Source: a virus. Taken from it: 64,000 nucleotides of DNA. The stretch is taken from the IMG/VR virus record IMGVR_UViG_3300025151_003852, positions 62,001 through 126,000 of that record, one strand, 5' to 3'. This document shows, piece by piece, positions 7,809 to 51,613 of this stretch (the first letter of the stretch is position 1; each line of letters begins with the position of its first letter). Made by a program: the position numbers and the translations under genes. A model generated the notes under the pieces. That model made no database searches, was not told where the DNA came from, and saw nothing but the letters and a program-made list of their open reading frames with translations.

Positions 7809-9571
7809 TCAATTTAAAACATGTAACTCTCAGAAACTTTTTAAGTGTAGGATCAGTTACACAAGCAATTGACTTGCAAAATGAGGAACTAACCCTCATC
7901 TTAGGTGATAACTTAGATTTAGGTGGAGACGGTGCTAGAAATGGTACTGGTAAGACTACTATTATACAAGCAATCAGTTATGCATTGTATGGTGTTCCAC
8001 TTAACAATATCAAACAAAACAATTTAATCAATAGAACTAACGGCAAAGGCATGATGGTGACATTAGACTTTGAAGCCAATGGCGTTGAGTATCGTATTGA
8101 ACGTGGACGTAAGCCTCATGGCATGAAGTTCTTTATCAACGGTGTAGATGAAGAAGACAACGAAGCACAGGGCGAAAATAAAGAGACACAACAAGTTATC
8201 GAAGACATCGTAGGCATGTCTTCAGTGATGTTTAGAAACATCGTTGCACTTAATACATACAGTCAACCATTCTTAAGCATGACACAGGGACAACAACGTG
8301 ATATCATCGAACAGTTGTTGGGTATAACTCTGTTATCAGAAAAAGCAGAGAAGATTAAAATCATTATAAAAAATAACAAAGAAGAAATTCAACAAGAAGA
8401 ATTTAAAGTCCAAGCAATAGAAGAAGCAAACAAAAGAATTGAAGAACAAATAGATAGTCTTAGAAAGAGAGAAAGACTATGGACAGCAAAGACTAATGAA
8501 GATATTGGCACGTTAAAAGATAAGATTGAAACACTAGAAAAAGTGGATATCGATGCCGAATTACTTGGACATAAACAACTTGCTGTCTATAATGCTTTAG
8601 TTAAGGATCATGCAGATATCGACAAATTAATGTTAAGAACTCAAAACGATATTGATAGAGAAACTAAGTCAATAACCAAGTTTGAAAAAGAATTAGATAT
8701 ACTAAAACAAAATAAATGTCACACATGTGGACAAGATATATGCGATGATACGCATATTAGAATCATGGGAGACAAAGAAGAAAGTTTATCAGAGGCTACT
8801 AAACATGCCGAAGAACTAGCAGAAGTTTATGTAGAATTAGAAAAAGAGAAACATTCATTGTTTGAGATAGGAGAGAAACCAGAGACTTATTATAGTTCTG
8901 AAGAAGAGGCTATCGAACATAAGAATAAAATCAAAGACTTGTCAGCACAAGTTAAACGCAAAGAGCAAGAAGAAAATCCATACACAGATCAAATATCTGA
9001 AATGGAGTCTAGTGCATTACAAGAAGCAAACTTTGATAAAGTAAACGAATTATCACGTATAGGAGATCATCAGAAGTTCTTGTTAGACCTATTAACAAGC
9101 AAAGATTCATTTGTACGTAAAAAGATTATTGATCAAAACTTATCTTACTTAAATTCACGTTTAACAAACTACTTAGACAAGATGGGTCTACCTCATCAAG
9201 TAGTATTCCAAAATGATTTGTCTGTAGAAATTACAGAATTGGGCAGAGAGTTAGACTTTGACAATTTAAGTAGAGGAGAACGTAACAGATTAATCTTAGG
9301 ATTATCATTTGCGTTCAGAGATGTTTGGGAGAACTTGTACTTCCCAATCAATACATTGTTTATTGACGAGTTGATTGACTCAGGACTTGACACTATAGGT
9401 GTTGAGAATGCTATGGCTATTCTTAAAGACATGACACGTAGACGTAACAAATCTGTTTGGTTAGTGTCACACAGAGAAGAATTAGCAGGCAGAGTTGCTA
9501 GTGTGTTACAAGTTATTAAAGAGAACGGATTCACTACATACAATTCGACTAGGGAGTTGGAGCAGTTGTGA
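7805..9571 (+). CDS. 46: Recombination endonuclease subunit gp46 (Rad50/SMC-like ATPase)
   Basis: 588 residues (T4 gp46 is 560). Walker A 'GARNGTGKTT' at 43-52; long charged coiled coil at roughly 180-420 broken by a zinc hook 'CHTC' at Cys305/Cys308; ABC signature 'LSRGERNRLILGL' near 488; Walker B 'LFIDELIDSG' near 517. The hook dimerises two arms through zinc. It is the second gene of an operon with gp47 upstream (4-nt ATGA overlap) and a radical SAM gene downstream that starts inside the gp46 stop. Confidence 0.93.
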   Translation: MINLKHVTLRNFLSVGSVTQAIDLQNEELTLILGDNLDLGGDGARNGTGKTTIIQAISYALYGVPLNNIKQNNLINRTNGKGMMVTLDFEANGVEYRIERGRKPHGMKFFINGVDEEDNEAQGENKETQQVIEDIVGMSSVMFRNIVALNTYSQPFLSMTQGQQRDIIEQLLGITLLSEKAEKIKIIIKNNKEEIQQEEFKVQAIEEANKRIEEQIDSLRKRERLWTAKTNEDIGTLKDKIETLEKVDIDAELLGHKQLAVYNALVKDHADIDKLMLRTQNDIDRETKSITKFEKELDILKQNKCHTCGQDICDDTHIRIMGDKEESLSEATKHAEELAEVYVELEKEKHSLFEIGEKPETYYSSEEEAIEHKNKIKDLSAQVKRKEQEENPYTDQISEMESSALQEANFDKVNELSRIGDHQKFLLDLLTSKDSFVRKKIIDQNLSYLNSRLTNYLDKMGLPHQVVFQNDLSVEITELGRELDFDNLSRGERNRLILGLSFAFRDVWENLYFPINTLFIDELIDSGLDTIGVENAMAILKDMTRRRNKSVWLVSHREELAGRVASVLQVIKENGFTTYNSTRELEQL

Positions 9572-10584
9572 GTCTAGCCTTGTGGCACTGGCATATTGAA
9601 GTAAGCAGTAAGTGTACTTTAAAGTGCCCACGATGTCCTAGACAAGAAGTTCCTGATACATTAGTCAGTACTGAACTCAAACTAGATTTTTTTAAACAAA
9701 ACTTCCCTGCGTTCTTTATATTAGAACACGTAGAGAAACTAACGTTCTGTGGTGACGATGGCGATCCTATCTATGCACATGACTTCTTAGAAGTCATCCA
9801 GTATTTCAAATCAATTAAGCCTAGTATAGCAATCATTATCGTCACTAACGGATCATATAAAAATGAAGACTGGTGGGCAAGACTAGCAGAAATGCTTGAT
9901 GAGCAAGATCAGATTCACTTCAGTATCGACGGCTGGGACCATGAGAGTAATAATCTCTATCGAATCAATTCTAATTGGTCTAGTATCATTACAGGCGTCT
10001 CTATCATCAATGATAAGTCTAATTGTTATACCGTATGGGACGCAATAGGCTTTAAGTTTAACGAAGATAAGATTGGCGACATGCAGAATTATGCTAGAGA
10101 CTTAGGTTTTGATGCATTTCAATTAACACGTAGCACTAAGTTCGGTAAGATATACGAAGATTCTTATGGGAAAGAAGATGCTTTACAACCACGTGATGAT
10201 CTGTTATCATCTAGTCATAGATTTGAAAGAGAAGTCTTTAAGTTTACAGATAAAACAATTAAAGAACCTTGGATGAAGACAAACATTAAGTTGTATGATG
10301 AATCTAAGTTAGTAGGAAATGAACGACCTCTATGTCATATCGGCAATAAAGGTAGTTACATTAATGCTAGGGGCGAATTTTACCCCTGTTGTTGGGTTGC
10401 TACAAGATATGGACACAACAATAAATGGAATGAAATTGGCAAGAAATATAATCTACATGAATTGAGGTTACCCAAAATTGTAAAAGATAAATTCTGGGAA
10501 GCCGACTTTATACATGACTCTTACGAGTGCCAAACAAAATGTGCCCATCATAGGGTAGATAAAAATTATGCCACCGAGTGGTAA
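9568..10584 (+). CDS. Radical SAM protein with SPASM-like C-terminus
   Basis: 338 residues starting with GTG at 9568, overlapping the gp46 stop as GTGA. The radical SAM [4Fe-4S] motif is C16-x3-C20-x2-C23 ('CTLKCPRC'). A 'TFCGDDGDP' segment follows in the place of the SAM-binding 'GGEP' motif, and 'IIIVTNGS' matches a later barrel strand. The C-terminal part has cysteines near 256, two adjacent ones in 'GEFYPCCW' near 273-277, and 'CQTKCAHH' near 322, a SPASM/twitch-like auxiliary cluster arrangement. Substrate unknown; such proteins modify peptides or RNA or mature enzymes. Placement in the gp47-gp46 unit is not the usual T4 arrangement. Confidence 0.82.
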   Translation: MSLALWHWHIEVSSKCTLKCPRCPRQEVPDTLVSTELKLDFFKQNFPAFFILEHVEKLTFCGDDGDPIYAHDFLEVIQYFKSIKPSIAIIIVTNGSYKNEDWWARLAEMLDEQDQIHFSIDGWDHESNNLYRINSNWSSIITGVSIINDKSNCYTVWDAIGFKFNEDKIGDMQNYARDLGFDAFQLTRSTKFGKIYEDSYGKEDALQPRDDLLSSSHRFEREVFKFTDKTIKEPWMKTNIKLYDESKLVGNERPLCHIGNKGSYINARGEFYPCCWVATRYGHNNKWNEIGKKYNLHELRLPKIVKDKFWEADFIHDSYECQTKCAHHRVDKNYATEW

Positions 10585-10601: not shown

Positions 10602-11189
10602 ATGCCATCACCATCTAAGAACAAAGGATCAGGATTTGAACGAGAAGTTGCAAAATTTCTCAGTGAGACTTATGAAGAAAGTTTCATACGTGCTCCTGGC
10701 TCTGGTGCTTATGTAGGTGGCAAAAATCAAAATCGTACAGAGATTTTGCATGAAGGACAAATCAGAAGTTTCAAAGGCGACATTGTTCCCGGAGAAAGTT
10801 TTCACAAGTTAAATGTAGAATGTAAGTTCTACGCAGATTTCCCTTTTCATCAACTTCTTTCTGGTTCATGCAGACAACTAGAAGAATGGCTCGACCAATT
10901 AATGGACGTGCATGATGAAGGGGATTTTGACGTTCTCTTTATGAAGTTTAATCGTAAAGGACGTTTTGTATGTGTACCAAGTAAATACACATTCGTAAGT
11001 GATCAATTCATATATTACACATCAGACAATCATGGTGACTGGGTAATATTTGGATGGGATCACTTTTTTAAATTCAATAAAGATATATTCAAAGCATACG
11101 CAGGCGACACAGAGACCAACTCAGAACCCACCGATGACACCAAGTCAGAACTAAAACTAAACACAACAACAACTACAGTAGACTTTTAA
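10602..11189 (+). CDS. PD-(D/E)XK nuclease-like protein (Hjc-type resolvase pattern)
   Basis: 195 residues. The pattern 'KGSGFEREVAKFL' (residues 8-20), 'APGSGAY' (31-37), 'KGDIVP' with D60, and 'NVECKF' with E73-x-K75 follows the archaeal Hjc-like/PD-(D/E)XK order: Glu in helix 1, then Asp, then E-x-K. The C-terminus (about 160-195) is low-complexity Thr/Asn/Glu. The catalytic residues appear complete. Last gene of the gp47-gp46-radical SAM unit, 17 nt after the preceding stop, with GGAGA before ATG. A role in branched-DNA or end processing is inferred from motif and context. Confidence 0.65.
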   Translation: MPSPSKNKGSGFEREVAKFLSETYEESFIRAPGSGAYVGGKNQNRTEILHEGQIRSFKGDIVPGESFHKLNVECKFYADFPFHQLLSGSCRQLEEWLDQLMDVHDEGDFDVLFMKFNRKGRFVCVPSKYTFVSDQFIYYTSDNHGDWVIFGWDHFFKFNKDIFKAYAGDTETNSEPTDDTKSELKLNTTTTTVDF

Positions 11190-11660
11190 AATTTAGTATG
11201 GTCGTAATTTGTACTCGACCCTCCTCGAGGATGCAGTAACCCTGCTGACGGATTTGGAGTAGTGTGTTATACACAATAAACCGACAGGGCAATTGTTATG
11301 GTAGCAAACCCTGAATGAGTTCATATCTACTTTGATTTGATGATATGAAACATGCGTTGCTGAGAGGTCATGCTCATTAGTATGATTGGCTCAACTACAG
11401 CCCAGTAAACATTACAGAGCAACCGGTTGCAATTGATTATAGTAACGTAATCGATTGGGGATAATCAACATGGATGACAGGCGGTAAAGAGGCTTGAATT
11501 TTTCGTGGTAGTGCTGAGTAGCACTACCATGGCTTCAAAACGGTAATAAGACTTTAAACAATAACCATTAAGAACTTTTACTTTATCCTTTTAAATAAGA
11601 AATTACGAATGAACGAAGTGAATGAGTAATTGGGTCTTCTTTGAAGACCCTTAAGAATGC
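11190..11660 (+). ncRNA. Candidate structured non-coding RNA (470-nt gene-free region)
   Basis: No ORF of note on either strand, but many helices can be drawn by eye: GGTCG/CGACC (11200-11204 with 11216-11220); CCCTG/CAGGG plus CGG/CCG plus TGTGT/ACACA (11240-11289); TTCATATC/GATATGAA (11320-11349); GTTGCT/AGCAAC (11356-11423); a 10-bp stem at 11430-11457 with one G-U; a 9-bp perfect stem TGGTAGTGC/GCACTACCA (11506-11529); AATTAC/GTAATT (11601-11631); and a terminal 8-bp hairpin (11632-11650). Local GC is higher than the flanks. Plus orientation is assumed because it follows the plus-strand operon. It does not match tmRNA, RNase P RNA or group I/II intron landmarks that I know. Confidence 0.55.
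11632..11650. terminator. Hairpin between convergent operons
   Basis: GGGTCTTC, loop TTT, GAAGACCC: an 8-bp stem between the plus-strand gp47-gp46 unit and the minus-strand gp26/gp51 unit, 19 nt beyond the gp51-like stop. It lacks a long T-run on either side, so it may be a bidirectional terminator or the 3' stem of the RNA candidate. Confidence 0.55.
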
Positions 11661-11668
11661 TCTAGTGT

Positions 11669-11899
11669 TTAGAAGAATGGCATTTGAGTTTTCTTAGTAG
11701 TTTCTAAGTGTTCCTCAATTAATTTGTTTATGGCTTTACGTTCTGATAGGGACATGTTAAGGACATCTTCATATGAGGCACCACCACGCATGTACCAAGC
11801 CAAAGTCAAGGCGTTTGACTTTAAGCCCTGAGTGTATTCTTCATATTTTTGTATTAACTCCCTTATCCCTTCAGGGTCGAGTGAAAGGAGTCTTAGACG
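11669..11899 (-). CDS. 51: gp51-like tail assembly protein, expressed as the -1 frame extension of gp26
   Basis: A 76-codon open frame beginning in the -1 frame at the gp26 stop and ending at TAA 11671-11669. It reads RLRLLSLDPEGIRELIQK..., then 'LTLAWYMRGGASYEDVLNM', and ends '...ETTKKTQMPFF', resembling gp51-type small hub-assembly proteins. There is no ATG, GTG or TTG before its conserved start; the first ATG lies in 'WYMRGG', mid-protein. Translation therefore most likely comes from -1 frameshifting at T_TTT_TTC (11905-11899), giving a gp26-gp51 fusion of about 361 residues. Independent initiation at a non-standard codon is the alternative. Confidence 0.72.
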   Translation of the reverse strand, partial: RLRLLSLDPEGIRELIQKYEEYTQGLKSNALTLAWYMRGGASYEDVLNMSLSERKAINKLIEEHLETTKKTQMPFF

Positions 11900-50404: not shown

Positions 50405-50494
50405 GGAAGATTGGCAGAGTGGTTGAATGCACTGGTCTTGAAAACCAGCATACGAGAGATCGTATCGAAGGTTCGAATCCTTCATCTTCCGCCA
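50405..50494 (+). tRNA. tRNA-Ser(TGA)
   Basis: Cloverleaf with acceptor GGAAGAT/ATCTTCC, anticodon loop CTTGAAA (anticodon TGA), long class II variable arm, T arm GAAGG-TTCGAAT-CCTTC and an encoded CCA. 90 nt. It immediately follows the peroxiredoxin gene. Confidence 0.95.
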
Positions 50495-51046
50495 TCACTT
50501 GTGACCAATTAACATAAATCTATTATAACTAGAACTCCCGTAGTCGAAATATTTTGTTTCTGAGTATAGGAGTTCTGACATTTGAAATCTCTCTTTTAAT
50601 ACTTCTATAGACGGACAAGGGTTCGATATTAGCCACGGGTCTCTGTGTTCTGTAACATCACTAGACTGAATACATACTAATGCATTTGGGTCAACATTAG
50701 CATACCAGTCATCTTTCATATGCTCTACACTACAGTTAATTACTACGTTATGTCCTTGCAAATCGTAGGTATCTGCGTTTGCACATGTGTTTCTAATCTG
50801 TGAGTTTCTGCCTAACATAAAGCCCTGACATAGCATATCAGCGCCTCTAATCGCCTCTGAGTCAATATCTATGCCTAAGATGTGTTGATACTTGTTTTTA
50901 TTACGAGTTAAAAGCATAAAACCTAATAAATTATACCAGCACCCAGGCACTGCAACTACAGCATCTTTTGGTATATACGGTTCGATAGTTTCACACAACC
51001 AAAGTTTAGATTGTGTTTGACCATGTGAGAAAGATAATAGATCCAT
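50495..51046 (-). CDS. Class I methyltransferase-like protein
   Basis: 183 residues. 'DAVVAVPGCWYNLLGFMLLT' is the first strand and glycine turn of a Rossmann-like fold, followed by 'ILGIDIDSEAIRGADML' (acidic end of strand 2), 'NADTYDLQG' and 'NVVINCSVEHM' (motif IV-like). The glycine-rich motif is weak, so SAM binding is inferred. Convergent with the tRNA-Ser gene, whose CCA it touches. Confidence 0.55.
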   Translation of the reverse strand: MDLLSFSHGQTQSKLWLCETIEPYIPKDAVVAVPGCWYNLLGFMLLTRNKNKYQHILGIDIDSEAIRGADMLCQGFMLGRNSQIRNTCANADTYDLQGHNVVINCSVEHMKDDWYANVDPNALVCIQSSDVTEHRDPWLISNPCPSIEVLKERFQMSELLYSETKYFDYGSSSYNRFMLIGHK

Positions 51047-51073
51047 AATACTATTTAATGGGTAAAAAAACCG

Positions 51074-51102
51074 TTGACAAAAAATAATGATGCTGATATA
51101 AT
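51074..51102 (+). promoter_or_regulatory. Consensus sigma70-type promoter for the tRNA cluster
   Basis: TTGACA, 17 nt, TATAAT: perfect consensus, 24 nt before tRNA-Thr. This is the second perfect consensus promoter in the window. Confidence 0.88.
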
Positions 51103-51125
51103 GACTACTAAATATATGAACAAAT

Positions 51126-51201
51126 GCTCCAGTAACTCAGTTGGTAGAGTAACTGATTTGTAATCAGTAGGTCGGCGGTTCGAATCCGTCCTGGAGCTCC
51201 A
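51126..51201 (+). tRNA. tRNA-Thr(TGT)
   Basis: Acceptor GCTCCAG/CTGGAGC, anticodon stem ACTGA/TCAGT with loop TTTGTAA (anticodon TGT), T arm GGCGG-TTCGAAT-CCGTC with one G-U pair, encoded CCA. 76 nt. Confidence 0.95.
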
Positions 51202-51218
51202 TATTTTAGAGGGAAAGT

Positions 51219-51431
51219 TTGAACCTTACAGAGAAGATTAATGATAGAATGGATCAATTGCAAGCCTGGATGGAGAGCAATTATCACTTAAATCATGCAG
51301 AAGAAGTCTACGAACACACTCTTAATATCAGTAAGTTTTGGTCTGTTTTATCAGAAGAAGACAGAGAATATATACAGTGTGCCCAAGATGCTATCGAAGA
51401 ATCTACTCCATGGGGAGATCCAAATAAATGA
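51219..51431 (+). CDS. Small conserved phage protein between tRNA genes
   Basis: 70 residues with a TTG start and AGAGGGA upstream. 'RMDQLQAWMESNYHLNHAEE' and 'ISKFWSVLSEEDREYIQCAQ' match a small all-helical protein widespread in marine T4-type phages (recollection), function unknown. It ends 3 nt before tRNA-Ala, so it is embedded in the tRNA transcript. Confidence 0.75.
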   Translation: MNLTEKINDRMDQLQAWMESNYHLNHAEEVYEHTLNISKFWSVLSEEDREYIQCAQDAIEESTPWGDPNK

Positions 51432-51434
51432 AAG

Positions 51435-51510
51435 GGGGCCGTAGTTCAGTTGGGAGAACGTCTGGTTTGCAACCAGAAGGTCGGCGGTTCGACCCCGCCC
51501 GGCTCCACCA
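51435..51510 (+). tRNA. tRNA-Ala(TGC)
   Basis: Acceptor GGGGCCG/CGGCTCC (one G-U), anticodon stem TCTGG/CCAGA with loop TTTGCAA (anticodon TGC), T arm GGCGG-TTCGACC-CCGCC, encoded CCA. 76 nt. Confidence 0.93.
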
Positions 51511-51526
51511 GTGTTCAAAAAGTTTT

Positions 51527-51613
51527 GCCCGAGTGGTGGAATTGGTAGACACAAGGGACTTAAAATCCCTCGACCTTACGGTCATGCCGGTTCAAGTCCG
51601 GCCTCGGGTACCA
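51527..51613 (+). tRNA. tRNA-Leu(TAA)
   Basis: Acceptor GCCCGAG/CTCGGGT, anticodon loop CTTAAAA (anticodon TAA), class II variable arm, encoded CCA. 87 nt. Its 3' end lies five nt before the ATG of the reductase gene. Confidence 0.95.

Follow-up and report, generated by a model that had tools for sequence, protein, structure and literature searches.

A large, pseudoknotted non-coding RNA, supported by covariation, at a fixed locus in uncultivated T4-like phages

Introduction

What, if anything, is encoded in the gap between the PDDEXK nuclease gene (PF24608; 10602-11189, + strand) and the convergent T4-type baseplate hub gene (PF12322; 11893-12753, − strand) of an uncultivated phage? The gap lies in a stretch of 64,000 nt that was analysed as a whole and is termed the window; all coordinates given without a locus name are window positions. 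To our knowledge very few RNAs of such size and conservation exist as the one described here, and those known from phages (ROOL and GOLLD) are without an assigned function. Both have been described as large, pseudoknotted, phage-borne and non-coding, and both build cages made only of RNA (PMC12286853). The original prediction, made from the window sequence, was of a structured RNA comparable in kind to these two and unlike them in sequence. The analysis supports this finding, which is larger than first thought: judged from covariation among homologues, the gap encodes a real, conserved RNA with a knotted fold, on the + strand. The RNA is new to Rfam, and its secondary structure, including the pseudoknots, is supported by covariation.

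Coding content of the locus

The gap is bounded by the stop codon of the nuclease gene and by minus-strand open reading frames (ORFs) that end at 11669 and 11893. Inspection of the ORFs of the window revealed no plausible gene at 11190-11660, as had been predicted. An unrecognised protein gene could be sought in the one ORF (43 aa) on the minus strand of the gap; however, across 85 aligned homologues each forward frame contains at least two stops, every reverse frame is stopped in almost all of them, and the insertions and deletions have lengths that are not multiples of three, and a protein gene can be dismissed with near certainty.

Between the RNA and the hub gene there is a minus-strand ORF of 46 aa (11669-11809) with no PHROG match, and DNA resembling its 3′ part reappears after the RNA in many homologues. 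Upstream, a radical SAM gene (9568-10584) is found between gp46 and the nuclease gene; it is missing from some of the homologous loci and is therefore not tied to the RNA. The tRNAs of the window are located at 50405-51613, ~39 kb from the RNA (11190-11650).

Homologues and their distribution

Homologues were collected from IMG/VR by way of nuclease and hub gene relatives, alongside a scan with a 17-base pattern of the RNA. The original prediction had looked to related phages for homologous sequence, and this was found in at least 217 viral loci: a profile HMM matched 217 of the 225 loci collected, the remaining eight being a truncated contig (L019) and seven chance pattern matches. Removal of duplicates left 116 distinct sequences with 52-100% identity to the window, and the window RNA and its homologues are about 460-520 bases in length. 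The RNA starts 3-121 nt past the nuclease stop codon, and the nuclease gene is directly upstream in 199/200 loci that have upstream sequence, the sole exception (L222) having gp46 upstream and the hub gene downstream. A convergent hub gene follows the RNA wherever the loci extend far enough. A riboswitch or leader, which would precede a co-directional gene under its control, was considered and rejected, as loci with downstream sequence have a convergent gene next to the RNA. In one divergent member (L145:2119-2574), an insertion separates the 5′ domain from the core.

A covariance model of the RNA core (R1, 193 positions) matched 77 of the best 80 nuclease loci from a second search, and the other three contigs run out no more than about 70 nt past the nuclease stop codon. 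Exactly one copy was found in each of 11/11 contigs of 128-525 kb, and R1 had no match in six other contigs of 250-385 kb or in the whole genomes of PA5oct, SCTP-2 and Phosso. In the nuclease tree, all 109 sequences from RNA-bearing loci form one exclusive clade (support 0.85), the sister of which (L301; support 0.99) carries the 5′ domain of the RNA. The RNA is present in every sampled clade member with sequence beyond the nuclease gene, and these members are uncultivated phages, some of them huge. No homologue was found by blastn against cultured phages and plasmids, and when about 85,000 species genomes were scanned with a pattern, 13 matches were obtained, none of which is an RNA of this family (five that were inspected lie in unrelated sequence, and the two strongest are inside coding genes). 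Judged by the gp46-like protein, the nearest cultured relatives belong to the PA5oct group (49% identity). No description of the RNA was found in the literature searched, outside which most subscription papers lie.

Covariation and the transcribed strand

Compared with dinucleotide shuffles, the window stretch folds with z-scores of −3.1 on the + strand and −3.5 on the − strand, and the means over 15 homologues are −2.9 and −2.7, respectively. Folding energy cannot pick the strand, because both strands lie about 3 standard deviations beyond the shuffles. Covariation was examined with a background-corrected G-test, in which the 116 sequences were set against 40 null alignments that had been simulated along the inferred tree. 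It was found that canonical pairs in the helices P3, P5, P6 and P8, and at both ends of the pseudoknot PK1, top essentially all of the ~3.3 million null scores (E ≤0.025 per alignment against this tree-simulated null). The named structure of 64 pairs, including two pseudoknots, was scored in an independent alignment (A1) made with MAFFT from 85 sequences, where it is 96.6% paired, compared with 81.5% when shuffled; 46/64 pairs changed on both sides, compared with 34.5 in the shuffles. Its covariation score was 0.462, compared with 0.177 after shuffling and 0.06-0.09 after sliding. Since these sequences partly served to draw the structure, the slid control flatters it, and fairer tests are provided by the shuffles and the simulated null. 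Compensatory change keeps the helices beyond the phylogenetic background, which is the mark of a structured non-coding RNA, and the covariation above background that had been anticipated was thus observed against both the simulated null and the shuffles. The alignment contains 309 G-U cells and 48 A-C cells, and the transcribed strand is therefore the + strand.

Helices and pseudoknots

The conserved body of the RNA, as defined by homology in the at least 217 loci and by covariation, comprises about 363 nt (11190-11552), and all of the elements described here are on the + strand. At the 5′ side is the hairpin P1 (GGUCG/CGACC, 11200-11220), which is present at this place in 84/85 homologues with 39 different stem pairs among them. 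It is followed by P2, in which CUCC (11221-11224) pairs with GGAG (11256-11259) around the hairpin P2a; P2 (11221-11259) is 99.1% paired, and double changes to CUCU/AGAG and CUUC/GAAG are found in homologues. The stretch CCUCCUU had been considered as a mimic of the anti-Shine-Dalgarno sequence, an idea that was dropped since the stretch is half of P2 and covaries with its partner. P3 (11262-11274) is a variable hairpin in which every pair has changed on both sides. The core multi-branch is closed by P4 (11279-11283/11424-11428), which is supported by covariation, and within it P5 pairs CAGGG (11285-11289) with CCCUG (11309-11313) beneath a conserved loop; P5 (11285-11313) is 100% paired, with double changes in 4/5 pairs. 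The three-part stem originally drawn at 11240-11289 finds no support: this stretch belongs to P2/P2a and P3, together with the 5′ halves of P4 and of P5, which covary with 11424-11428 and 11309-11313, respectively.

P6 (11316-11327/11342-11352) is a hairpin with double changes in 10/10 pairs, several of which score above every simulated value (E = 0 at a resolution of 0.025). Its loop takes part in the pseudoknot PK1, in which UUGAU (11332-11336) pairs with AUCAA (11464-11468); PK1 is 96.2% paired, with double changes in 5/5 pairs and two pairs at E ≤0.025. P7 (GUUGCU, 11356-11361; AGCAAC, 11418-11423) is contiguous with P4 and is crossed by a second pseudoknot, PK2, formed by CCC (11401-11403) and GGG (11458-11460), which is 96.5% paired and has double changes in 4/4 alignment pairs. 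The position just before the 3′ strand of P7 covaries with the outer pair of P4: among the 116 sequences, the three positions read U/U/A in 74, C/C/G in 14 and A/A/U in 9, and a base triple between them is possible. Two of the stems originally drawn are real. The 10-bp stem placed at 11430-11457 is the hairpin P8 (11431-11455), in which double changes are found in 10/10 pairs, and the 9-bp stem at 11506-11529 is exact and conserved as the hairpin P10 (UGGUAGUGC...GCACUACCA; 98.6% paired). The stem of P10 is nearly invariant in sequence, such that the letters and not the pairing alone are conserved. The joining strands ACCGA, UGCGUU and AACCGGU of the RNA are also invariant.

Ends of the RNA

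The motif P0 (GACACCAAGTCA, 11136-11147, + strand) is unique in the window and lies inside the nuclease ORF, as it does in most loci. The pattern GACAC(C)(A)(M)GTC is found 28-85 nt upstream of the RNA in 113/119 loci, compared with 2 occurrences in 2.1 Mb elsewhere. Within the nuclease ORF it usually reads D-T-[K/T]-S. It is, however, constrained at the nucleotide level, because L061 and L167 retain it in a different frame, an additional copy lies past the nuclease stop codon in L199, and the relatives L270 and L302 have GCCACCAAGGC at this place, a change that preserves pairing. P0 may form a small hairpin (GAC-ACCAA-GUC) with which the RNA begins.

On the 3′ side, a hairpin at 11601-11631 (+ strand) carries a tandem G-A motif (GAACGAAGUGA, 11611-11621), which is found 3′ of the RNA in 90/126 loci, compared with 3 occurrences in 2.2 Mb elsewhere; those of the remaining loci that were inspected have variants of this hairpin. 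It is followed by a terminator-like hairpin (GGGUCUUCUUUGAAGACCC, 11632-11650, + strand), which is a perfect inverted repeat and has equivalents after the RNA in the homologues inspected. A terminator scan that required a longer T run did not report it; the hairpin is the probable 3′ end of the RNA. The functional element therefore probably spans 11136, inside the nuclease ORF, to about 11652, with both transcript ends inferred from sequence. Of the extent first proposed, 11190-11660, the non-coding RNA stretch stands and the boundaries are probably those just given.

P0 and the G-A motif, near-unique in the sampled sequence, and a single site per genome would also be expected of an element acting at the level of DNA (a replication origin or packaging site) with an incidental resemblance to RNA, or of the primer RNA of an R-loop. 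Such an element is very improbable, since the excess of G-U over A-C (6 to 1) in compensatory changes and the covariation of the pseudoknots require RNA, and there is no switch of GC skew at the RNA locus; the need for RNA does not tell against a primer, which would itself be RNA.

Comparison with known RNAs

Searches with Rfam at the gathering score and at E ≤10, using the window and two divergent homologues, gave nothing credible. In particular, the covariance models of ROOL and GOLLD did not match the window RNA at either threshold, and no tmRNA, RNase P RNA or group I/II intron was matched by the Rfam models (or by ARAGORN, for tmRNA); the original prediction had recognised none of their features either. 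The topology of a group I intron, with its P3/P7 pseudoknot, had been considered and was set aside, as its helix order is not that of the RNA and there was no model match. A catalytic RNA that cleaves or processes itself would have the invariant unpaired strands and an H-type pseudoknot as its active site, and the joining strands ACCGA, UGCGUU and AACCGGU, together with a pseudoknot with a possible base triple, would suit it; against this, no Rfam model of a group I/II intron, RNase P or ribozyme matches and the RNA is not inserted in a gene, which leaves a catalytic role distinctly unlikely.

The window RNA is most likely a trans-acting, ornate phage RNA that resembles ROOL and GOLLD in kind and is a member of neither. 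Like them, it is large, pseudoknotted, phage-borne and without coding capacity, which fits what was first proposed. Unlike them, it is shorter (about 460-520 nt), has no sequence or covariance-model match to either, and is fixed between the nuclease and baseplate hub genes and not beside tRNA genes, whereas GOLLD is often near a tRNA island. The most abundant transcript of the Vibrio phage ICP1 is a non-coding RNA of about 800 nt that lacks an ORF (PMC7567579). This RNA is likewise large, without an ORF and near no tRNA, but its locus is a different one, beside the lysis cluster. The packaging RNA of phi29 (174 nt) is a phage RNA that serves as an assembled structural part; it differs from the window RNA in fold and genome context, and the latter has no Rfam match.

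RNAs at the same locus in sister lineages

Nuclease loci without a match to R1 have mutually similar gaps of 420-790 nt beside the nuclease gene. A model of the 5′ domain that includes P1 (R2) matched L270, L300, L301 and L302 (E 6e-6 to 5e-4), L290 (0.01) and L262 (9e-8), and P2 in the sister RNAs reads, for example, CUCA/UGAG, CCCA/UGGG or CCUA/UAGG. A window-type 5′ domain with another core (CUGACUAUA...CUAGAGUAGGG) was observed at L270:4548-4930, L300:4527-4900 and L302:4538-4900, and the pattern of this core matches only 5 stretches in IMG/VR. Similar P5 loops, as seen by eye, suggest that the different cores may be homologous.

Other loci hold the RNA Polynucleobacter-1 (RF01718). It is found just past the same nuclease gene in L288:4624-4768, L294:4551-4707 and L279:4539-4695, a locus equivalent to that of the window RNA, and some 850 nt past it in L316:5345-5495; four copies are present in one contig of 327 kb (G005). 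By the 37-bit criterion it is absent from the window and from G000 and G007-G010. RF01718, the published model of which is only 141 nt, is matched by neither the window RNA nor its homologues. Rfam lists Polynucleobacter-1, an orphan family, for Burkholderiales and fresh water; here it is found in uncultivated phages. Sister lineages with different RNAs at one place, including Polynucleobacter-1, provide comparative leverage on the roles of large phage RNAs.

The gene order gp47-gp46-nuclease > RNA < hub is retained by types with different RNAs. In PA5oct-like contigs (e.g. L244 and L252), the gap lies between the hub and nuclease genes, with gp46-gp47 elsewhere, and a further large structured RNA of about 550-700 nt without an Rfam match was observed there (L244:2605-3368, L252:2638-3346, L260:2687-3316). 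Its alignment contains 124 G-U and 11 A-C cells, which places this RNA on the strand opposite the nuclease gene and convergent with the hub gene. This arrangement argues for the RNA as a unit of its own and against its being no more than the 3′ UTR of the nuclease operon. As a cis-acting 3′ UTR of the gp47-gp46-radical SAM-nuclease operon, the RNA would protect the message from 3′-exonucleases or feed back on the expression of the nuclease, for example through nuclease binding, and its start so soon after the nuclease stop codon, the position of P0 within the nuclease ORF in most loci, the terminator-like hairpin after the RNA and the near-constant adjacency of the nuclease gene (199/200 loci) are all in keeping with this. 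The fold is, however, far more elaborate than a hairpin that stabilises an mRNA, the related RNA of PA5oct-like contigs is on the other strand with gp46-gp47 elsewhere, and the class of RNA is exchangeable while the operon persists; the 3′ UTR is a rather unlikely reading.

The best explanation, with a probability of about 0.68, is that this uncultivated clade of T4-like phages has at the locus the gene of a large non-coding RNA that folds stably and acts in trans; one point against action in trans is that a place right after the operon is also expected of a 3′ UTR element. Transcription would run in from the gp47-gp46-radical SAM-nuclease operon or begin at a promoter close to P0 (a scan of the window sequence recognised no promoter for the RNA), and processing near P0, together with termination at about 11650, would free the RNA. 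The RNA would not regulate a downstream gene, because none is found on the same strand before the terminator. The freed RNA may act in trans as a folded object, be it as a single molecule, in an oligomer or in complex with a protein of the phage or the host, and its acting parts would be the invariant joining strands and the sequence-conserved hairpin P10, as expected for RNAs of the ROOL/GOLLD type.

More tentatively, and at somewhat less than even odds, the place beside the gp46/47-nuclease and hub genes may be a fixed ‘RNA locus’ of T4-like huge phages, occupied in each genome by one member of an exchangeable superfamily of large RNAs with a shared 5′ domain and 3′ end and different cores, of which Polynucleobacter-1 would be one version; this would point to a required and hitherto unseen RNA-based function. 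In cultured phages, gene-poor long gaps beside the nuclease gene are found in Sinorhizobium phage Phosso (L228:2486-3500) and Pseudomonas phage PA5oct (L227:1978-3491), and these gaps, with few or no annotated genes and with inverted repeats, are possible equivalents.
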